A DNA stretch of 29,256 bases from a virus. Position 1 is the stretch's first letter. Every line of letters starts with the position of its first letter. The notes under the pieces were generated by a model. It searched no databases. It worked only from the letters and a program-made list of their open reading frames with translations, and had not been told where the DNA came from. Both the position numbers and the translations under genes were made by a program. Below are positions 11,143 through 29,123 of this stretch, piece after piece. The stretch is taken from IMG/VR virus record IMGVR_UViG_3300025154_002528, positions 1-29,256 of that record. One strand, written 5' to 3'.

Positions 11143-11472
11143 ATGTTCAGTATTTTTTATTACAATCAGAGCGTGAAAAATGATGTCGAGGATTTTCCGG
11201 CTGGAATCAAAAAGCGCTATTTCAATCTCGCAGACAGAATGATTGAATATGGCCCCAACCTCGGAGAACCTCACACAAAAGCTCTCGGCGATGGACTTTT
11301 TGAAATAAGAGCAAAAGGTCAGGAAGGTATAGGCCGGGCGTTTTACTGTACTGTCATTGGGAAGAAAATTGTTGTCCTGCATGCTTTTATAAAAAAGTCT
11401 CAGAAAACGCCTAAAAACGACTTGGATACGGCAAGAAAAAGAATGAAGGAGGTGCAAAATGCGTGGAAATAG
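11143..11472 (+). CDS. higB: RelE/HigB-family toxin (phage Gp49-like)
   Basis: A 109-residue protein of the RelE-superfamily toxin type Gp49/HigB. Features are SIFYYNQSVKNDVEDFPAGIKKRYFNLADRM at the start, LGEPHTKALGDGLFEIRAKGQEGIGRAFYCTVIGKKIVVLHAFIKKSQKTP in the core, and a closing A-x-x-R helix. Family members are ribosome-dependent mRNA endonucleases. The basic residues of the core (R near AKGQ, and R, K and H near the FIKK segment) are kept. It precedes its antitoxin (HigBA order) and overlaps it by 14 bases. It is transcribed opposite to the structural operon in which it is embedded, so late transcripts would be antisense to it. Confidence 0.88.
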   Translation: MFSIFYYNQSVKNDVEDFPAGIKKRYFNLADRMIEYGPNLGEPHTKALGDGLFEIRAKGQEGIGRAFYCTVIGKKIVVLHAFIKKSQKTPKNDLDTARKRMKEVQNAWK

Positions 11473-11791
11473 AACAGAAGGATTCAAGCCTGTCACACAT
11501 GACAGAGAAGCAATGCTCGCCAAGGCGATGAAGAACGCCGATTTCACAAAGAAATGGAATGAAATTGATCCCGAAATATCCGCACTTGACATCGTCCTTA
11601 AAGCACGAAAAAAAGCCGGCATTACCCAGAAGGAAATAGCTCGGAAGATGCATACTAGCCAGGCAGCCGTCGCTCGTATTGAACGACTTGCGTCCGGGAA
11701 CACAAAAACGCTTCCCAGCATGATGTCACTGAAAAAATATGCAGCAGCTCTTGGATTCAGAGTTAAGATAGATTTTGAACTCACTAAGTAA
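11459..11791 (+). CDS. higA: HigA-type XRE antitoxin
   Basis: A 110-residue antitoxin with an N-terminal extension (1-40) and a Cro/C1-type helix-turn-helix at about 43-100. Features are IVLKARKKAGITQKEIARKMHTSQAAVARIERLASGNTKTLPSMMSLKKYAAALGFRVKIDF. Such proteins bind and neutralise the toxin and repress their own promoter. The palindrome at 11104-11121 is the probable operator. Its ribosome site AAGGAGGTG (11446-11454) is far stronger than that of the toxin (GAGAGG), which would keep antitoxin in excess. It converges with the tape-measure gene with 31 bases between the stops and no clear terminator. Confidence 0.9.
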   Translation: MRGNRTEGFKPVTHDREAMLAKAMKNADFTKKWNEIDPEISALDIVLKARKKAGITQKEIARKMHTSQAAVARIERLASGNTKTLPSMMSLKKYAAALGFRVKIDFELTK

Positions 11792-11822: not shown

Positions 11823-14153
11823 TCACTCAAAAACCATTTCATCGGAGGAACTTTGCTTCTCCAGAAGCTGGTTTGTTTTCTTTGTGTTTTTCGCGGTTTC
11901 CTCGACGGCTTTCGCTGTCCTTTCGGAAGCATTCCCGGCAGACAACGAACGCACGGACGCGGCATAGAACGAGCCTGCGACATCGACTTTTCCCTTCGCA
12001 ACATCAAGTTGGGATGAAGCTCCCTTCATAGCATCCTTCAGGCTTCCTAAATTGAGGCTGCGCCCGCTGCCGCTTTTGAGGTTGCCGGACTCCGTCCGTT
12101 TGCTTTTCGCTTCCTCGATTGCGGCTTTCCATTCGGACCTTGCGGCTTCCAGTTTCTTCTGCGATTCGGCAAGCTCGTCGGCATATTCCTGTTGCTGATT
12201 GCGGAGATCATCCGACATCATGCCGCCGAGGAAGTTCTCCGTTGCTTGACGTCGGTTCTCAATTTCAGCAATTTTACTGCTCCGGTCGGACTCAACTTTC
12301 GCAAGGGCATCATCCTGGACGTTATTCTTTTGAGAGGTTTCAAGGTCGACCTGAGCTTTCGCCGCTTCCACATCAATCGACTGGTCAAACATTCCGATAA
12401 TGTCGAGCCATTTCTTGGTAAGAAATCCGTAGACTTCATTCCATGTCTTTATTATGGTACCCGTAAATTTTGTCCAAAAGCCGGTGAGAAAACTCACAGT
12501 ATTCACCCACTCTTTCCGGAGTCCTGCCCAGCTGTCGTTGATGATAGCGAGCGATCCGAGGAAAATCTCACTCGTCGTTTTCTGATACCATGACTTGAAC
12601 TCAATCCAGAGCGTTTTCAGTAAATTGACGCCGCTTTGCCAGGCGACCAGAAGCGATGTCCAAAGTATCTTCGCCGCAAGCGTGAAATCACCAGCCGTCA
12701 TGGCGTTTTTTATTGCATCAAAAGACTTCATCGCAAAATCCTTTAACGCCTGGAACTTTTCACTCAGCCAGCCGAGCATTTTGCCGCCAAGTCCAGTATA
12801 ATAAAGGATGGCAATTCCCAGTCCCGCAATGGCAGTAACGACAAGTCCGATGGGGGAGAGAATGGCTCCGATTATCGTTATAAGAATGCTGATCGTCGTT
12901 CCGACTCCGGCAATGACTGCCGAGATGCCGCCGAACACAAAAGCCACGCTCTTTGCAATCGTCCCGATGACGATAAGCGCCGTACCAGCCGCCGCTATCG
13001 CACCAACGATTTTCAAGGCCGAAATGACGACCTCTTTATTGTTCGCAATCCACTCGCGAATCAGCCCCATATAACGAACGACTGTCTTTGACATCCGTTT
13101 GATTGAACCCGATAACGCTTCGCCTATTTCGACAAAAATCGCGATCCCTGCCTGTTTCATTCTGGCGAGAGCCAACGACAAGGTGTTGCTCATCTTTTTA
13201 TATGCTCGGTCGGCGGCGCCAGCACGCTTCTGCATGACCTGGATGTCTTCGATGAAACCCTTCATATTTTGAATGGCCGGAAGTACGCCTCGCAATGCCC
13301 TTACATTGGGAAATAATGTGCTTATATCGTCCGGCGACAATTTCGATATCTTCTGAAAGACTCCCAATAATCCGCCGCTTTTGATAGTGGCAGATGACAT
13401 TTCAAAACCAAGTTTCCTGGCGTATTCCGCAGCCTCTTTTGAGGGAGAAAGAAAACTCGTAATGATGGCATTCAAGGCGGTAACCGCATTGTCGGTATTT
13501 ACCCCATTTCGGGTCATTGTTGCAATGGCGGCGCCGAACTCGTCCATGCCGACACCGGCAGTCGCGGCAGTCGTCGCAACCATCCCGACAGCAGGCGCCA
13601 ATTCAGCAAAAGTAGTTTTTCCCTTTTTGACCACGGAAAAAAGCCAATCCGAAACATCACCCGCACGGCTTGCCGACAACCCGTAAGCATTTAGGATTGT
13701 GGTTATTGCATCGGCGGCAATGCCGGTATCCGTTACCCCGGCCTTTGCCGCTTTTGCGGAAATACCAAGGACGTAAAGAGCTTTCTCGGCAGGTATTGAC
13801 GCTGATAAAATATCATATAAACCTTTTGCCAGCGTTCCCGTGTCCTCACCGAATTTTATGGACATATCCGTGACGCCTTTTTTGAAAGCTCCCATGAATT
13901 TATCAGGCTGATCGAGCATGGTTGAAACGTTCGCCATCTCCTCTTCAAAATCGGCGGCCGCCTTTACTCCCAGCGCAAAAGGCGCAGCCATGACGAGGCT
14001 CGCTTCAAGCAGCTTCTTGCCCATATGCGTAGCAGATTCGCTGAAGGCTTTCAGCTTTTTCTGAGCGCCGTTCAGCCCTCGGACAAGCCTGTTGTCCTGC
14101 ATAAAAAGCTCGACATAAGCCGCGCCTGCTTTGATGTTAGTTCCTGCACTCAT
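11823..14153 (-). CDS. Tail tape measure protein (TP901 type)
   Basis: A 776-residue tape measure that sets tail length. The N-terminal region (ADFEEEMANVSTMLDQPDKFMGAFKKGVTDMS, YDILSASIPAEKA, VTDTGIAADAITTILNAYGLSAS and SDWLFSVVKKGKTTFAELAPAVGMVATTAA) is the phage tail tape-measure core of the TP901 family. A hydrophobic block follows at about 385-455, usually the part that enters the host membrane, then long amphipathic and coiled-coil segments towards the C-terminus. At roughly 1.5 angstrom per residue this predicts a tail of about 115 nm. ATG 14153 overlaps the stop of the tail chaperone frame (ATGA). Its 3' end borders the toxin-antitoxin insertion. Confidence 0.95.
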   Translation of the reverse strand: MSAGTNIKAGAAYVELFMQDNRLVRGLNGAQKKLKAFSESATHMGKKLLEASLVMAAPFALGVKAAADFEEEMANVSTMLDQPDKFMGAFKKGVTDMSIKFGEDTGTLAKGLYDILSASIPAEKALYVLGISAKAAKAGVTDTGIAADAITTILNAYGLSASRAGDVSDWLFSVVKKGKTTFAELAPAVGMVATTAATAGVGMDEFGAAIATMTRNGVNTDNAVTALNAIITSFLSPSKEAAEYARKLGFEMSSATIKSGGLLGVFQKISKLSPDDISTLFPNVRALRGVLPAIQNMKGFIEDIQVMQKRAGAADRAYKKMSNTLSLALARMKQAGIAIFVEIGEALSGSIKRMSKTVVRYMGLIREWIANNKEVVISALKIVGAIAAAGTALIVIGTIAKSVAFVFGGISAVIAGVGTTISILITIIGAILSPIGLVVTAIAGLGIAILYYTGLGGKMLGWLSEKFQALKDFAMKSFDAIKNAMTAGDFTLAAKILWTSLLVAWQSGVNLLKTLWIEFKSWYQKTTSEIFLGSLAIINDSWAGLRKEWVNTVSFLTGFWTKFTGTIIKTWNEVYGFLTKKWLDIIGMFDQSIDVEAAKAQVDLETSQKNNVQDDALAKVESDRSSKIAEIENRRQATENFLGGMMSDDLRNQQQEYADELAESQKKLEAARSEWKAAIEEAKSKRTESGNLKSGSGRSLNLGSLKDAMKGASSQLDVAKGKVDVAGSFYAASVRSLSAGNASERTAKAVEETAKNTKKTNQLLEKQSSSDEMVFE

Positions 14154-14566
14154 TCAATTTTCCTATCTACAAAAACGTCTTTCAAAATTCTCAGTCCTTT
14201 TCCGCGAAGGACTGTTTTCTTTTTCTGTTCATGCGGATTCAGTTCCTTGGGACTTACCGCACGGCGCTTTTTCGAGTCGCGATTGACGTTGATTATCAGA
14301 GCCAGAATAGCCGACGTGTGATTCCAATTGTCCCTGCTCTTCGCCTCGGCCATGATCAGCAACTCTTTCAGCGTCAAGGGGTCAGGATTGACTCCGATGA
14401 TTCCGGCAAGTTCCCAGAGAAATCGGTAATATTCTTCAGCGCGTCCTCGATTCTCTTTTCGAAGATTGGACTGTCCAGATATTTGTCCGCCGTCTCGACG
14501 GCTCGGGTCTGCACCTTTTTGAATTTCTCCACCGCTTTGCGAAGTACCTGGCGCTTCGCATCCGGG
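14150..14566 (-). CDS. Tail assembly chaperone, C-terminal domain reached by -1 frameshift
   Basis: This frame has no good start of its own. Its stop lies directly before the tape measure, and the frame opens at TGA 14575-14573, immediately upstream of a slippery heptamer at 14572-14566. A -1 shift there joins 97 residues of the preceding chaperone to 138 new residues (235 in total). The new part includes EEYYRFLWELAGIIGVNPDP, then LTLKELLIMAEAKSRDNWN and SAILALIINVNRDSKKRRAV. It reads as a conserved tail-chaperone extension, and the conserved-looking part starts upstream of the first candidate start (TTG at 14377, which would give only 75 residues). This is the G/GT arrangement of lambda and the usual one before tape-measure genes. 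Confidence 0.8.
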   Translation of the reverse strand, partial: PGCEAPGTSQSGGEIQKGADPSRRDGGQISGQSNLRKENRGRAEEYYRFLWELAGIIGVNPDPLTLKELLIMAEAKSRDNWNHTSAILALIINVNRDSKKRRAVSPKELNPHEQKKKTVLRGKGLRILKDVFVDRKIE

Positions 14567-14856
14567 AAAAAATCAACCAGCTCCTCAAGCAGCGCGACGG
14601 TCGCGTGTTCAATCACGTCGCCAGCCATCGACTGTCCGAATTGCTCGTCGCTGACATTTCGCTTGTCAGCGTCGGGCTTGCATATTGCGTAAATAACGTC
14701 GCATAAAAGCATTGGATCGGTTGCAAGTCTTTGGATGAGATCGCTCTCCACGGCATCCATGAGATTCAGATTCAGCAGCGTTTTGACCCTTTTCATTGCT
14801 GCGACATTGACAGATACATTCCATGACCGTCCTTCGTTGTCTTTAAATGTTTTCAT
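14374..14856 (-). CDS. Tail assembly chaperone (zero-frame product)
   Basis: A 160-residue protein between the tail tube and the tape measure, the canonical place for tail assembly chaperones. It starts MKTFKDNEGRSWNVSVNV and is largely helical afterwards (AAMKRVKTLLNLNLMDAVESDLIQRLATDPMLLCDVIYAICKP). Residues 95-97 (Asp-Phe-Phe) are encoded by the slippery stretch that diverts some ribosomes into the -1 frame. ATG 14856 follows GGAGGCAACCCCATA and overlaps the stop of the tail tube gene (TAATG). A longer reading frame extending to 15138 only overlaps the tail tube gene out of frame and is not real. Confidence 0.85.
   Translation of the reverse strand: MKTFKDNEGRSWNVSVNVAAMKRVKTLLNLNLMDAVESDLIQRLATDPMLLCDVIYAICKPDADKRNVSDEQFGQSMAGDVIEHATVALLEELVDFFPDAKRQVLRKAVEKFKKVQTRAVETADKYLDSPIFEKRIEDALKNITDFSGNLPESSESILTP
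14538..14572 (-). promoter_or_regulatory. Programmed -1 ribosomal frameshift signal
   Basis: On the minus strand the zero frame reads GA-T TTT TTC, giving the classic slippery heptamer T TTT TTC at 14572-14566. After a 5-base spacer comes a stem-loop, TGCGAAG (14560-14554) pairing with CTTCGCA (14544-14538) around a 9-base loop. The -1 frame is closed by TGA just upstream of the heptamer and open to 14150 downstream. All three elements (heptamer, spacer, stem) meet the standard rules. Confidence 0.85.
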
Positions 14857-15278
14857 TATGGGGTTGCCTCCTTCCATTGGGGTGCTCTTGTGGAGTAAGT
14901 CGGCTTGGCCGTGACACTTACGGTCATAGCCTCTTCGAGCGGTTCCGACCTCGAAAAACTTGTAATAGCGAAGTCGGCGTCGAGTCCTTCTCCATCCTCT
15001 CCATCGAGAATGGCAAGCGCGATCGCCGACCCGCTGAAATAAGCATTTTTGATTGCGACAAATCCGGCATTCGCCGAATCCCAGACCATTTCCCATTCTA
15101 TCGAAGCATCCTTCAAAGCCGCTACTGTTGCACGCCATCCGTTGTTTGCACGGGTGGTTACATCGGCTTCGGACGATTCGAGATTTAACGTCACATCTTT
15201 TGCATTTTTGAGTTCAGTTGTAGCCGTATTTCCGGCATCGCCGTAATACAGCTTCCCTTCCAATCCTAGTTTAAACAT
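14856..15278 (-). CDS. Major tail tube protein
   Basis: A 140-residue protein with tail-tube character. It opens MFKLGLEGKLYYGDAGNTATTELKNAKDVTLNLESSEADVTTRANNGW, followed by the segment KDASIEWEMVWDSANAGFVAIKNAYFSGSAIALAI and the C-terminal strand EEAMTVSVTAKPTYS. It is the repeated subunit of the non-contractile tail tube. No sheath gene is adjacent, which supports a siphovirus. ATG 15278 is preceded by GGAGGT at ideal spacing, consistent with high expression. Neighbours are neck proteins upstream and the chaperone downstream. Confidence 0.85.
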   Translation of the reverse strand: MFKLGLEGKLYYGDAGNTATTELKNAKDVTLNLESSEADVTTRANNGWRATVAALKDASIEWEMVWDSANAGFVAIKNAYFSGSAIALAILDGEDGEGLDADFAITSFSRSEPLEEAMTVSVTAKPTYSTRAPQWKEATP

Positions 15279-22513: not shown

Positions 22514-22560
22514 TTCTGGTTGCTGTGCAATACATACAAAACAATTGGAAAAACGGTCTG
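22514..22560 (-). repeat. 47-bp element, copy 1 (late operon, proximal)
   Basis: On the plus strand it begins TTCTGGTTGCTGTGC and ends AAAACGGTCTG. It is identical to copy 2. Read in the direction of the downstream gene it starts CAGACCG and ends ACAGCAACCAGAA, 18 bases before the leader-protein ATG. Inside, TTGTT can pair with AGCAA. Promoter, operator or 5'-leader RNA element are possible. Confidence 0.85.
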
Positions 22561-22610: not shown

Positions 22611-22657
22611 TTCTGGTTGCTGTGCAATACATACAAAACAATTGGAAAAACGGTCTG
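22611..22657 (-). repeat. 47-bp element, copy 2 (late operon, distal)
   Basis: A perfect direct copy of the element at 22514-22560, separated from it by 50 bases of unrelated sequence (period 97). It lies just outside the WYL-gene terminator. Confidence 0.85.
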
Positions 22658-23775: not shown

Positions 23776-23851
23776 TGCATTAAATATATACTGCCTTTGA
23801 TGATAAAAACATGTCATCGGAGTAAAAACTTAAAAAAACGAGGTGCAGAAA

Positions 23852-25735
23852 ATGATGGTAAGTGCAGACCGTTCGTCGCATCAATTGTGCGAACTCTCCG
23901 TAATCGGCGGGTTCCTTGACGGCGTGAAATTCGATTTTTCACAGGGGCTGAACTGTATAATCGGAGCCAGAGGAACGGGCAAGACAACAGCTTTGGAATT
24001 AATCCGTTACGCGATGGGGAAAATGCCTGAAAGTCCGGCAGCAGGCAAACGCCTTGAATCCCTTGTCGACGCCAATCTCAACGGCGGACGTATTGAGCTT
24101 AAAATCAGGACGAAAGACGGATTGAACTATATCGTCAGTCGGGTTTGCGGAGAGGCACCGGTAGTATTGGACACAAGCAGTCAGCCGACCGGACTGACCC
24201 TGAGGAACGGCAGTTTTTTCAAAATCGACGTATACAGCCAGAACGAGGTGGAAAACATGGCGGACGACCCGCTTTCCCAACTGAACCTCATAGATAATTT
24301 CGAACCGGAAAAGCTCTCTGAAATAGAGCGCCAGATACGGAAAGTAAAATCGGACCTGGCATCCAACTCGAACACTCTTATTCCTTTATATGAACGGCGC
24401 AGGATGTTGAACGAGTCAGTTGGGACGCTCCCGGCAATAGAAGAAAAGCTGAAGTCATTCGCTGCGGAAAATGGAGAAAATTCAGAAGAAATAAACAGGG
24501 CGCATGCGCTGAAGGGGCAGCGGGATCGTGAACGAAGAAGCATGGATGCGGGTCATAAACTTCTTGCCGATGCGGAATCGTACATATCCGGCAGCATTCA
24601 CTATATTCATGATAATCTTCAGAACATTTTCTCAAAGGATATCATTACCGGCTGCAATGCTCAGGTCATACAGGATGCAATGTCGGATCTGCTTTCATGC
24701 GGGGAAAACATCGATATGAAAATAAATCAGTTGCGTGGACTGATAAAGGAAACTCTTGAAAAATTATCAGGCCATTCGGCACGGATTGAACACTTGCACA
24801 CACAGCAGGAAATGCAGTTCAGGAGCTTGATAGAAAAGCATCGTGAAAACCAGGACAAGGCAACGGAAAGAATAAAGCTGGAAAAGCGGCGCAATGAACT
24901 TCTTGGAACCAAAAATGAGTTGGGCGAAATAGATAAGAAAATTAAAAACCTTAAAGACGAAAGAACCCTTATGCTTTCAGAACTTTCCTCTCACCGGGAT
25001 AAAAGGTTCCGCCTCAGAGAAATGATAGTTGACAGAATCAACAGCAAACTGATGCCCGCAGTCCGTGTCTCAATAAATCAGTACGGAAACCGGGGGAAAT
25101 ACAGTGATTTTCTTGGGGAATGCCTGAAGAACGGACACATGCAATATCGCAAGCCTGCGGAGAAAATCGCACACGCATTCTGGCCCTCTGATATCGCATC
25201 TGTGATAAGGGAAAAGAAGACCGTAGAACTTATGGAACGAGCAGAATTAAGTGAGAACATGGCAAAACAGGCACTTGAAGCACTTAGAAAAGTTGAAGTT
25301 CTTCACAAGCTTGAGGTAATCGACTTGCCTGACCAGCCGCTGATAGAACTTAACGACCACGGCAACTATAAAACGACCGCATCGCTTTCCACCGGACAGA
25401 AATGCAATACGATCCTGCCGATACTGCTCCTTGACAGCGACAGTCCGCTTTTGATAGACCAGCCGGAAGACAACCTCGATAATGGCTTTGTCCACAACAC
25501 GATAGTCGAAAGCATCTGCAAAATGAAAGGCCGCCGCCAGATGGTATTCGTAACACACAACCCGAATATTCCGGTACTTGGAGATGCCGAGCGTATTTTC
25601 GTGCTTGAGTCGGACGGAACGGTAGCATCAATGCGGAATTCGGGTGGAGTTGATGAGTGCAAGGAGGAAATCGTCTCGCTTCTGGAAGGCGGGGAACAGG
25701 CGTTCAAAAAGCGCAAAGTACGTTATTCATATTAA
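23852..25735 (+). CDS. SMC/TrlF-like ATPase of the defence-like cassette
   Basis: A 627-residue soluble ABC-type ATPase. Walker A is GARGTGKT (38-45, Lys44). A long helical and coiled-coil region of about 300 residues (roughly 155-460; e.g. KATERIKLEKRRNELLGTKNELGEIDKKI) separates it from the ABC signature LSTGQK (512-517), Walker B PLLIDQPEDNLDN (from 532) and the H-loop VFVTHNPNIPVLGDAE. The C-terminal part closely resembles ATPases of the TrlF / Rad50-like defence group. Start: GAGGTG at 23840-23845 points to ATG 23852 (MMVSADRS); a GTG at 23843 lies inside that ribosome site. No PHP, nuclease or other effector domain is seen, so it probably works with the kinase and regulator downstream. 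Confidence 0.9.
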   Translation: MMVSADRSSHQLCELSVIGGFLDGVKFDFSQGLNCIIGARGTGKTTALELIRYAMGKMPESPAAGKRLESLVDANLNGGRIELKIRTKDGLNYIVSRVCGEAPVVLDTSSQPTGLTLRNGSFFKIDVYSQNEVENMADDPLSQLNLIDNFEPEKLSEIERQIRKVKSDLASNSNTLIPLYERRRMLNESVGTLPAIEEKLKSFAAENGENSEEINRAHALKGQRDRERRSMDAGHKLLADAESYISGSIHYIHDNLQNIFSKDIITGCNAQVIQDAMSDLLSCGENIDMKINQLRGLIKETLEKLSGHSARIEHLHTQQEMQFRSLIEKHRENQDKATERIKLEKRRNELLGTKNELGEIDKKIKNLKDERTLMLSELSSHRDKRFRLREMIVDRINSKLMPAVRVSINQYGNRGKYSDFLGECLKNGHMQYRKPAEKIAHAFWPSDIASVIREKKTVELMERAELSENMAKQALEALRKVEVLHKLEVIDLPDQPLIELNDHGNYKTTASLSTGQKCNTILPILLLDSDSPLLIDQPEDNLDNGFVHNTIVESICKMKGRRQMVFVTHNPNIPVLGDAERIFVLESDGTVASMRNSGGVDECKEEIVSLLEGGEQAFKKRKVRYSY

Positions 25736-25751
25736 TATAAGGAAAAGCTCG

Positions 25752-26906
25752 ATGAACGAATTAAAAGGATTTACAGAAAACGATCTGAATGGCCTTGATT
25801 GGCCGGAACGCCGCAAATTTGCCCAGCAGCTCTGCGAACACATAAAGTCCGGTGATAGAAGCGAAGAGCGCCTTCGCCTCTTCGAAAGACTGGCGCTCGA
25901 TCCCAAGTGGGAAGTTCGTCTCGATATTGCACATAATCTGCTGAATATTCCCGAAGAGCGCTTCTGGAAATTAGTCCCGACGCTGGAAAAGGATACAAAC
26001 TCATTTGTTTTGAATGCTCTAAAAAGGGCAGTCAACAAGCTGGCATGCAAAAAGAAGGAGCGGAAAAAGTATGAAAAGAGTCTGGGCTGCATAGACGGAA
26101 TGCGTTTGAAAATCAAAAAGCAGCATGGCCCTGAGGCGGCTGAAAAGGCGTTCCGGATGACCGAGCGGCTTTACGATGTAATGAACGGATCGATTGTTCA
26201 CGATATGCTGGGAATCCTGACTCCGATAAAGTCCGGAGCCGAGACAATAAGCATATGCTTCGATGAAGGATGGGACGATCGGGAAAAAATCGGACGGGCG
26301 TTAAACTCCATGTCAAAATGCATATACCTGATGGAGCGCCTCCTTGGCGACATGCGTTCTTATTCCAAGCAGACGCCGAGGGAAAGAAAAACCGAACGGC
26401 TGATTGATGTCGTAAATGAATCGCACAAACTTGCGTTGGACTTTTTCGAGTCTAAAGACATGGATGTGCACCACATAAGTCTGGGAATAGATATAACGGA
26501 AAATATAACTCTCGATATCGCCCGGCATCAGATCGTCGAGGTATTTTATAATCTCATCAGAAACGCTTATGAATCTTTCGCGACCGGACCCGGATCTTTC
26601 AGGTCTGGCGGAATAAGCGTATCCGCAGAAATAGCGAACGGCAATTCTGTGAGAATTGCAGTTTCGGATAACGGAATGGGCCTTAATGAAGATGAGCTTT
26701 GCCATGTCCGGCGCTTCGTTCCAGGCGGAACTTCCAAAAAAATGACAGGTACCGGATTCGGATTGCCGATTGCCAGAAGGAAGATTTCCGACCATGGCGG
26801 GACATTGGAAATCGACAGCGAAGAAGGAGAAGAAACAACGGTTACGGTTACGCTGCCACTGAAAAACGGGAGGAACGATAATAATGACACATGCTCTGAT
26901 AGTTGA
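25752..26906 (+). CDS. Soluble histidine kinase with N-terminal HEAT-like repeats
   Basis: A 384-residue sensor kinase without membrane segments. Residues about 20-100 form HEAT-like helical repeats (LFERLALDPKWEVRLDIAHNLLNIPEERFWKLVPTLEKDTNSFVLNALKRAV). The phospho-acceptor motif is GSIVHDMLGILTPI with predicted His150. The ATP-binding domain shows the N-box FYNLIRNAYESF (266-276), the G1 box DNGMGL (307-311) and the G2 box GTGFGLPIARRKISDHGGTLEI. ATG 25752 follows AAGGAAAAGCTCG, 16 bases after the ATPase stop. It overlaps the regulator by 23 bases, so translation is probably coupled. A repeat-containing cytosolic kinase would sense an internal cue or partner such as the ATPase (inference). 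Confidence 0.92.
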   Translation: MNELKGFTENDLNGLDWPERRKFAQQLCEHIKSGDRSEERLRLFERLALDPKWEVRLDIAHNLLNIPEERFWKLVPTLEKDTNSFVLNALKRAVNKLACKKKERKKYEKSLGCIDGMRLKIKKQHGPEAAEKAFRMTERLYDVMNGSIVHDMLGILTPIKSGAETISICFDEGWDDREKIGRALNSMSKCIYLMERLLGDMRSYSKQTPRERKTERLIDVVNESHKLALDFFESKDMDVHHISLGIDITENITLDIARHQIVEVFYNLIRNAYESFATGPGSFRSGGISVSAEIANGNSVRIAVSDNGMGLNEDELCHVRRFVPGGTSKKMTGTGFGLPIARRKISDHGGTLEIDSEEGEETTVTVTLPLKNGRNDNNDTCSDS

Positions 26907-27666
26907 CGATTCGCAGCAGATCATCGAAGATCTCCGCGACCGCCTGGATTCGCTGGGACACTCTTACGATAACGCGATGTCGCAATTAGAGGCTCTTGAC
27001 CTTTTCAGCCGAAACACATATTCCTATATTCTGCTTGACCTGGAAATCCCTTTTATTTACGGCAAGCCAAGCAGGATACAAAACGGAAAAAACACGCTTG
27101 AATCCATAAGAAAAAGCGAGCGTGGAAGTTCAATTCCAGTAATAGTCATAACAAGCCACGGGCTTGACTCACATAAACTGGTGACTGAAGTCATGCGCTG
27201 CGGCGGAGCAGATGATTTCATGGGAAAACCATTTCCCAATATTGGAGAAACCCTCGAACAAAAAATCATGGACGTTTTGAAACAATACCCGGGAAAGGAG
27301 GAAGTCGTCCCACTATCTGAAAAAGTCGAAACTGAGGCGGTAAATGGGGTCAAGCTTCTCCTTGAGGCCAGGGACGGAAAAGAGTACTGGATATTGAACT
27401 CGTCCCCTCCGAAGCTGCTTTATAAGGCTTCCGCCGGAAAACGCGCGAAAGTGATGCGCGTCATATACGATTTCCAGCACCTTGACCTTATTCCCCATGA
27501 CTATTTTCTGAGTCAATGCGGCTGGAAAGACCACGAGTATTTTCTGAAGGATGAACAGGGCAATTATAATGCCATGCGCGGCCCGATGAAAAACCATCTC
27601 TCCGAAATAAACAAGGCGCTGGGCGCAGATTGGAAAATCGAAAGAGGTGGGATAAGGATCAGATAA
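26884..27666 (+). CDS. Response regulator with unassigned C-terminal domain
   Basis: A 260-residue protein. The receiver domain (1-130) has acidic pocket Asp8-Asp9 (ALIVDDSQQ), the phospho-acceptor Asp52 in YILLDLEIPF, Thr90 (VIVITSHG) and Lys115 (FMGKPF). An insert after Asp52, PFIYGKPSRIQNGKNTLESIRK, is longer than usual. After a linker (about 131-150) comes a 110-residue domain (LLLEARDGKEYWILNSSPPKLLY, MRVIYDFQHLDLIPHDYFLSQCGW, and the end LSEINKALGADWKIERGGIRIR) that could be a winged helix (the end recalls OmpR-type 'G-x-R-I'), or an effector. ATG 26884 follows GGGAGGAACGATAATA. It is the last gene before a strong terminator. Confidence 0.9.
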   Translation: MTHALIVDDSQQIIEDLRDRLDSLGHSYDNAMSQLEALDLFSRNTYSYILLDLEIPFIYGKPSRIQNGKNTLESIRKSERGSSIPVIVITSHGLDSHKLVTEVMRCGGADDFMGKPFPNIGETLEQKIMDVLKQYPGKEEVVPLSEKVETEAVNGVKLLLEARDGKEYWILNSSPPKLLYKASAGKRAKVMRVIYDFQHLDLIPHDYFLSQCGWKDHEYFLKDEQGNYNAMRGPMKNHLSEINKALGADWKIERGGIRIR

Positions 27667-28355: not shown

Positions 28356-28415
28356 AAAGCGGAGGTGATTGAGGATGCCGCCAGAAATGGCGAAATTCAA
28401 TCATCTCCGCTTTTT
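28356..28415 (+). promoter_or_regulatory. Hairpin masking a perfect Shine-Dalgarno, with T-run (riboregulator or attenuator)
   Basis: AAAGCGGAGGTGATTGA (28356-28372) pairs over 17 positions, one of them a G-U wobble, with the arm at 28397-28413. An inner stem CGCCA-GAAA-TGGCG (28379-28392) has a GNRA loop. The left arm contains GGAGGTGATT, the best possible ribosome site, with ATG at 28375 in frame with the sigma-like gene. The right arm ends in five T (28411-28415). The structure could hide the ribosome site or terminate transcription. Confidence 0.65.
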
Positions 28416-28467
28416 CATTGGCGCGTGTCTTCGGCTCCTCCCGGCCATAAGCCAGGAGAAAAAGAAA

Positions 28468-29067
28468 ATGGATACGGATTTTATCCCCGAAAGCATAGAG
28501 TCGAACATCAAGGCGAAGGCACGCATGTTCGTCAAGAAAAATAAACTTGCCGAGGTCGATATAGCAGACATCGAACAGGAACTAAGGATAGTCGTTGTAA
28601 AAGGGCTTCAAAAATATAACCCTGAGCTGGCATCGCCTGATACGTTCTGCGACAGGATCATCAGAAACAAGATCAAGAATCTCGCGAGAAAGCATTACTC
28701 CGAGAAAAACCTGATGATCCTCTATGCCGAACAACTCAAGGAAAACGATCAAGGGAATGCTTCGTCCCGACACAATGCGCTGGAAGAAAGTATGAATGTC
28801 GATTCCGCAATATCATTTCCTTTGCATGTAGCAGATCTCAAGTCCGATATAAACGCATTACTGGACAAAATGCCGGAAGAACTCAGGTCGTTTTGCATGG
28901 AAGCCGCCAAAGGGCTTTCTTTTAATCATATAGCAAGAGAAAAAAAGCTCAGCAAGTTCATGCTTTACAAGAAGTATCTGACCCCCATAAGGAAACTGTG
29001 CCGGAAGTTTTGCCTTCATGAATACCTTGATAAATCCATTGTGCTGAGGGGGCCGTCATGTGTTTAA
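28468..29067 (+). CDS. Sigma-70-family-like RNA polymerase factor
   Basis: A 199-residue protein (230 if started at ATG 28375). A region-2-like segment reads KAKARMFVKKNKLAEVDIADIEQELRIVVVKGLQKYNPELASPDTFCDRIIRNKIKNLARKHY, the usual 'D-I-x-Q-E ... Y-x-P ... F ... I-x-N ... R' pattern. The C-terminal part, LDKMPEELRSFCMEAAKGLSFNHIAREKKLSKFMLYKKYLTPIRKLCRKF, matches a sigma region-4 helix-turn-helix. It may direct RNA polymerase to phage promoters. ATG 28468 follows AGGAGAAAAAGAA. The longer form would use the Shine-Dalgarno hidden in the hairpin at 28356-28413. It ends 9 bases before the third 47-bp element. Confidence 0.75.
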   Translation: MDTDFIPESIESNIKAKARMFVKKNKLAEVDIADIEQELRIVVVKGLQKYNPELASPDTFCDRIIRNKIKNLARKHYSEKNLMILYAEQLKENDQGNASSRHNALEESMNVDSAISFPLHVADLKSDINALLDKMPEELRSFCMEAAKGLSFNHIAREKKLSKFMLYKKYLTPIRKLCRKFCLHEYLDKSIVLRGPSCV

Positions 29068-29076
29068 GCCATAACT

Positions 29077-29123
29077 CAGACCGTTTTCTCAATTGCTTTG
29101 TATGTATTGCACAGCAACCAGAA
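29077..29123 (+). repeat. 47-bp element, copy 3 (before RecE-like gene)
   Basis: An inverted copy of the 22514/22611 element with 3 differences in 47. In the gene direction it starts CAGACCG and ends ACAGCAACCAGAA, 24 bases before the next ATG. One difference turns a T-G pair of the TTGTT/AGCAA stem into C-G (TTGCT), keeping the stem. Confidence 0.85.

Follow-up and report, generated by a model that had tools for sequence, protein, structure and literature searches.

The virus record IMGVR_UViG_3300025154_002528, whose 29,256 bases we refer to as the window, carries on its minus strand a putative tail assembly chaperone gene between the open reading frames (ORFs) of a major tail protein and a tape-measure protein, and the question raised by this locus is whether that gene is decoded in one way or in two. 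Comparison of the locus with its relatives makes it very probable that a single chaperone gene is decoded both as a G-like protein and, through a programmed −1 frameshift at the slippery heptamer T_TTT_TTC, as an extended GT product with a T-like end.

In the window the heptamer stands in the register GA[T TTT TTC], as required for −1 slippage. The −1 frame is opened by TGA 14575–14573, directly before the heptamer, and ended by TGA 14152–14150, which overlaps the ATG (14153) of the tape-measure ORF; a −1 slip at 14572–14566 would give a fused product of 235 amino acids. An initial annotation of the sequence had proposed this arrangement, and its positions for the heptamer, the 5-base spacer (CCGGA) and the 7-bp stem (14560–14538), its limits of the −1 frame and its predicted products of 160 and 235 residues were all reproduced. 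Its proposal of two products from one start is supported as well, but it had overlooked the frame overlap of about 190 nt: 189 nt separate the slip site from the 0-frame stop, which leaves a long tail specific to G. Its set of signals contained the heptamer and the hairpin but lacked a Shine–Dalgarno-like GAGGAG at 14586–14581. Taken alone, the heptamer of the window could be a product of chance; in our view the comparison across the family removes that doubt.

Searching with the G protein, and also with alignments built from the G and −1-frame products, identified 243 loci, making 244 sources together with the window (L001 in our numbering); the matches in genome_contigs were mostly Planctomycetota records. 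Profile searches detected both G-like and T-like parts in 241 of the 244, the three sources lacking one part (L080, L124 and L125) each being cut off at a contig end. Wherever both parts were present (241 of 241), T lay in the −1 frame relative to G, never fused to it and never in the +1 frame. These 241 sources were reduced to 216 loci distinct in exact sequence and then to 165 representatives sharing fewer than 30% of 12-mers. A tblastn search of INPHARED with G and T of the window, and with G or T of L087, L011, L187 and L008, returned no relative. Members of the chaperone family come here only from uncultured phages and from bacterial genomes or prophages.

If T is translated by way of G, the −1 frame should be open from the point of the frame change onwards. 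Among the 216 loci, a −1 stop occurs anywhere in the overlap in one, against a mean of 129.3 (minimum 116) in synonymous shuffles, which supply the expected values throughout. The upstream stretch of equal length (128 loci with a −1 stop, 144.9 in shuffles) and the +1 frame (185 with a stop, 171.7 in shuffles) show no comparable avoidance. Part of the loci came from a query with the T frame, a possible bias towards open −1 frames, and the test was therefore repeated on loci retrieved with the G query alone, where 1 of 73 carries a −1 stop in the overlap against 47.8 in shuffles. Among the 165 representatives, stops in the −1 frame persist to the last codon ahead of the heptamer (29 in codons −5 to −1) and are absent from it on (0 in codons 0 to 36, where about 141 are expected, summed over bins), which locates the frame change at the heptamer. 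Moreover, no ATG, GTG or TTG occurs in the −1 frame between the heptamer and the T core in 197 of the 216 loci, and in the window the first such codon in the open frame is TTG 14377. The stop pattern and the absent starts together argue that T is reached through G by a frame change at the heptamer. This agrees with the initial annotation, which held that a start at 14377 would be wrong because the −1 frame is conserved upstream of the 75-codon OR​F there: the sequence RAEEYYRFLWELAGIIGVNPDPLTL is indeed conserved upstream of 14377, and the alignment of relatives does not reveal the opposite pattern, an independent start near 14377 with no conservation upstream of it.

The codons of the slip site point in the same direction. 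At the column of Phe96 the loci carry T_TTT_TTC (163), T_TTT_TCC (34), T_TTC_TGC (11) or one of eight singletons, and the core xxT_TTY, kept in 213 of 216, is the most constant element. T_TTT_TTC is found despite high G+C, in 102 of the 136 loci above 0.60 (the median G+C of the gene is 0.63). The Asp codon is GAT in 147 of 148 cases, the first Phe codon TTT in 201 of 216 and the second TTC in 167 of 167, compared with frequencies of 0.33, 0.25 and 0.75 elsewhere in these genes. In three loci (L095, L120 and L205) TTC TTC replaces TTT TTC, and in all three C_CCT_TTG follows two codons later; another nine loci carry C_CCT_TTG as well as a site in the place of T_TTT_TTC. On a tree built by a quick method from the N-terminal part of 162 of the 165 representatives, the replacement requires three changes, and the association of TTC TTC with C_CCT_TTG has a Fisher p of 0.0003, uncorrected for relatedness. 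Such a replacement is as expected if slipperiness, rather than the amino acids, is selected at this place. At the level of sequence comparison, then, the frame relation, the place of the frame change and the selection on both the −1 frame and the slippery codons are established.

Two candidate stimulators flank the heptamer, and the window carries both. GAGGA stands exactly 9 nt upstream of it in 176 of the 216 loci and in 135 of the 165 representatives (shuffle mean 90, maximum 100), the first Glu codon of the element being GAG in 181 of 197 cases against a frequency of 0.65. Downstream, the stem of the window is formed by the arms TGCGAAG (14560–14554) and CTTCGCA (14544–14538). When the 165 representatives are folded in 40-nt windows, the mean z has its minimum (−1.11) at +3 nt after the heptamer and ranges from −0.4 to +0.3 at the more distant offsets that were tested; a stem of at least 6 bp starts 2–9 nt past the heptamer in 85 of 165, compared with 0–31 at 13 shifted anchors. 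The exact stem of the window is retained in 18 of 165, with six of seven pairs near-constant and the outermost pair mostly missing. There is little covariation among these 18, which neither supports nor rejects the stem, and over all 165 representatives its exact positions pair no better than slid controls. Stems are more frequent in loci without T_TTT_TTC (39 of 53) than in those with it (76 of 163), a difference that may reflect one clade. The hairpin drawn in the initial annotation is therefore present as claimed but is supported across the family and not by the window alone, as its folding statistics, given below, make clear. A second cluster of 6-bp stems starts 63–74 nt before the heptamer end, in 8–19% of the 165 representatives per offset. 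Rfam, searched with positions 14100–15000, gave matches below gathering scores only.

The two predicted products share their N-terminal 97 residues and differ in everything past residue 97 or 98. An AlphaFold2 model of G (65 sequences, mean pLDDT 88.5) places the frameshift point in a turn between helix 80–96 and helix 99–127, and predicts the G-only tail as helices 99–127 and 130–146. The model of the −1 product has a low-confidence linker followed by a confident helical part at roughly residues 41–110. In a fold search of BFVD with G the best matches are weak and carry the name of tail assembly chaperones, the top one being an entry named Tail assembly chaperone (E 1.8e-3, probability 1.00, TM 0.47/0.58), and no meaningful match to G was obtained from the PDB by sequence or by fold. 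For T, BFVD returned nothing significant, with a 'Minor tail T domain' protein at rank 2 (E 1.2) and the N15 GT at rank 4 (E 2.6). A sequence match to Pfam PF06223 (Phage_tail_T) was obtained for the T region of 36 out of 61 relatives in the alignment (best E 6.1e-8).

Several observations weigh against decoding of one chaperone gene in two frames as described above. The T segment of the window itself has no Pfam match and a non-significant PHROG match, and for the G part Pfam, PHROGs and NCBIfam gave no sequence match to a known family of chaperones. One locus of the 216, L142, does have a −1 stop before the T core, 50 codons after the heptamer, which may be a sequencing error or mark a decayed gene. 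A perfect in-frame XXXYYYZ is missing from the overlap in 21 of 216 loci, and 17 of 216 have neither a Shine–Dalgarno-like core nor a 6-bp stem. In the window the hairpin is ordinary by itself, with a z of −1.67 and 16 of 200 shuffles folding equally well.

These observations have to be set against what other explanations would require. The T-like frame could be a separate gene, starting from TTG 14377 or further upstream and translated without any frameshift. An ORF lister does report the 75-codon ORF at 14377, and 19 of the 216 loci have a −1-frame ATG, GTG or TTG between the site and the T core, three of them with a Shine–Dalgarno-like core upstream (for scoring these elements and starts we used an assumed anti-Shine–Dalgarno sequence, which may not be that of the host). 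However, conservation of the −1-frame sequence sets in about 20 codons ahead of 14377, the frame is open and without a start between the site and the T core in the window as in most of the loci, and a −1-frame start follows GAGGA by 2–13 nt in only 7 of the 176 loci with that motif. A separate gene would also leave both the stop avoidance from the heptamer on and the codon bias of the heptamer unexplained, and we consider it very unlikely. A true indel or an assembly error, which is possible in any single contig, is excluded by the identical −1 relation in all 241 sources with both parts.

Alternatively, the two frames could be joined before translation, if RNA polymerase slips on the T/C run and produces a mixed population of mRNAs. 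Such runs promote polymerase slippage in other systems (PMC5009743), but here the run has six T only and is cut to T5 or T3 in many relatives, the sites are exchanged for C_CCT_TTG, and a Shine–Dalgarno-like element at a fixed 9 nt together with a downstream hairpin is what is expected of ribosomal frameshifting. This makes polymerase slippage highly improbable. Less clear-cut is where the ribosome would slip, since the step could take place on the overlapping T_TTC_CCG one codon later, or in the P site only on T_TTY, instead of in tandem on T_TTT_TTC. An in-frame heptamer one codon later is present in 116 of the 216 loci, nearly all of them with TTTCCCN, xxT_TTY is the element most strictly kept, and the A-site codon of T_TTC_TGC cannot re-pair. 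Against this, the near-constant TTT and GAT are needed for T_TTT_TTC and not for T_TTC_CCG. For the window the product is identical either way: both sites give the junction peptide DFFPG, so that mass spectrometry of the junction could prove the shift but could not pick the site. We regard slippage at one of these other sites as plausible though unlikely.

With programmed frameshifting at T_TTT_TTC, the majority of ribosomes would stay in the 0 frame, with the 160-residue G-like protein as product, while some would step back one base at the heptamer and continue in the −1 frame to give the 235-residue GT. In GT the 97 N-terminal residues common to both products would be followed by a linker of about 45 residues, probably disordered, and then by the helical T-like domain. 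By analogy with dnaX (PMC3711429; PMC7618472), GAGGAG may pair with the 16S rRNA and the hairpin may stall the ribosome, and, by analogy with phage lambda, both G and GT may be binding partners of the tape measure, with the tail tube protein as a further partner of GT. The tail specific to G is conserved and has a predicted helical structure, so that the two proteins are probably alternative C-terminal isoforms rather than one chain in a short and a long version. In the T_TTC_TGC clade re-pairing is possible in the P site only and not for the A-site codon, and a P-site-only model has been described for stem-loops blocking the A site (PMC7618472). A wider scheme, which we advance tentatively as possible rather than probable, is that the slip mechanism was rebuilt several times at one fixed place, as tandem slippage on T_TTT_TTC, as C_CCT_TTG and as P-site-only slippage in the T_TTC_TGC clade, while the Shine–Dalgarno-like element and the hairpin stayed and would do most of the work, with G and GT as alternative-tail isoforms whose tails are each selected in their own frame.

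Among the closest known systems is the G/GT tail chaperone of lambda, whose −1 frameshift was reportedly described by Levin in 1993 and Xu in 2004 and 2013. Shared with it are the order of tail tube protein, chaperone and tape measure, and a −1 shift on a heptamer giving a short and an extended product (here by comparison). A T region akin to that of lambda may be shared too, Phage_tail_T being matched in the relatives noted above and not by the T of the window. The G of our family differs from that of lambda in its predicted helical tail, which is missing from GT. In dnaX the shift shortens the product, whereas here it would extend it. The signal of dnaX combines an upstream Shine–Dalgarno-like sequence, a slippery heptamer and a downstream hairpin (PMC3711429), and all three parts are present here, the hairpin at family level and as presence only. 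The gene is another one, however, and the heptamer is T_TTT_TTC instead of the A_AAA_AAG of dnaX, so that the locus would work like dnaX without being a member of it. Unlike lambda, where the heptamer is G_GGA_AAG (PMC7618472) and the slip site lies near the 3′ end of G (PMC5009743), the site here is T_TTT_TTC, 189 nt ahead of the G stop and accompanied by both a Shine–Dalgarno-like element and a hairpin. The tail chaperone genes of the SEA-PHAGES set used with PRFect likewise combine a backward shift with varied slip motifs, but there the in-frame stop follows the slip site at a mean distance of 26 nt (PMC10885494), compared with a median of 189 nt here.

Frameshifting in tail chaperones is of a known kind; this family stands out by an unusually full signal set and a long dual-coded overlap. 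A 2016 review states that certain tailed phages seem to change frame without stimulatory signals (PMC5009743), whereas this family shows the full set of signals. Text searches on tail chaperone frameshifts with Shine–Dalgarno elements, and on chaperones or frameshifting in Planctomycetota phages, returned no title or displayed abstract that describes the family. Of the 43 cases in one test set with a distance above 51 nt, PRFect predicted only two (PMC10885494), so sites like these may be missed by it, as by other tools built to look for the slip close to the stop of G; a gene caller that places the start of the second gene at TTG 14377 cuts off part of a conserved domain. The family also offers natural slip-site replacements, and its T_TTC_TGC clade makes the mechanism testable, with a junction F-C-P if the A-site codon is decoded before the slip and F-L-P in the case of P-site-only slippage.

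The features of the locus are collected in Table 1. The gene order was checked in relatives on ten loci picked from the 206 with a suitable upstream ORF and ten from the 76 with a suitable downstream ORF; the upstream ORF matches major tail protein families in 7 of 10 and the downstream ORF tape-measure families in 6 of 10.

Table 1. Coordinates of the chaperone locus, its proposed frameshift signals and its neighbours in the window
Feature	Position	Strand	Evidence
Major tail protein (neighbour)	14856..15278	-	phrog_1407 E 9.3e-12
G-like tail assembly chaperone, 0 frame, 160 aa (putative)	14374..14856	-	ORF list, aligned homologues, AlphaFold2, weak BFVD fold matches
Shine–Dalgarno-like GAGGAG, proposed 5′ stimulator; GAGGA ends 9 nt before heptamer	14581..14586	-	
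Slippery heptamer T_TTT_TTC	14566..14572	-	letters; kept across relatives; codon bias
Hairpin, proposed 3′ stimulator: 7-bp stem, 9-nt loop	14538..14560	-	spacer CCGGA after heptamer
Dual-coded stretch: G-only tail (residues 98-160, 0 frame) and GT linker/start of T (−1)	14377..14565	-	
T-like domain and C-terminus of GT (235 aa in all), −1 frame	14153..14440	-	stop codon 14152-14150
Tape-measure protein (neighbour)	11823..14153	-	PF10145 E 6.3e-30; phrog_991 E 1e-61

Immediately beyond the tape measure, a Gp49-like gene (11143–11472, plus strand; PF05973, E 1.1e-28) overlaps an HTH_3 gene (11459–11791, plus strand; E 1.9e-9), both of them running opposite to the tail genes. This pair looks like a toxin–antitoxin system of the HigB/RelE type within the structural module. 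Elsewhere in the window, a sequence of 47–48 nt occurs in three copies (22514–22560, 22611–22657 and 29076–29123), two direct and one inverted (94%), which bracket a module at 22.7–29.1 kb. Within 23843–27666 (plus strand) lie, in a row, genes for an SMC/AAA-type ATPase, a protein with a histidine-kinase ATPase domain and a response regulator, followed at 28369–29067 by a Sigma70_r2 protein.

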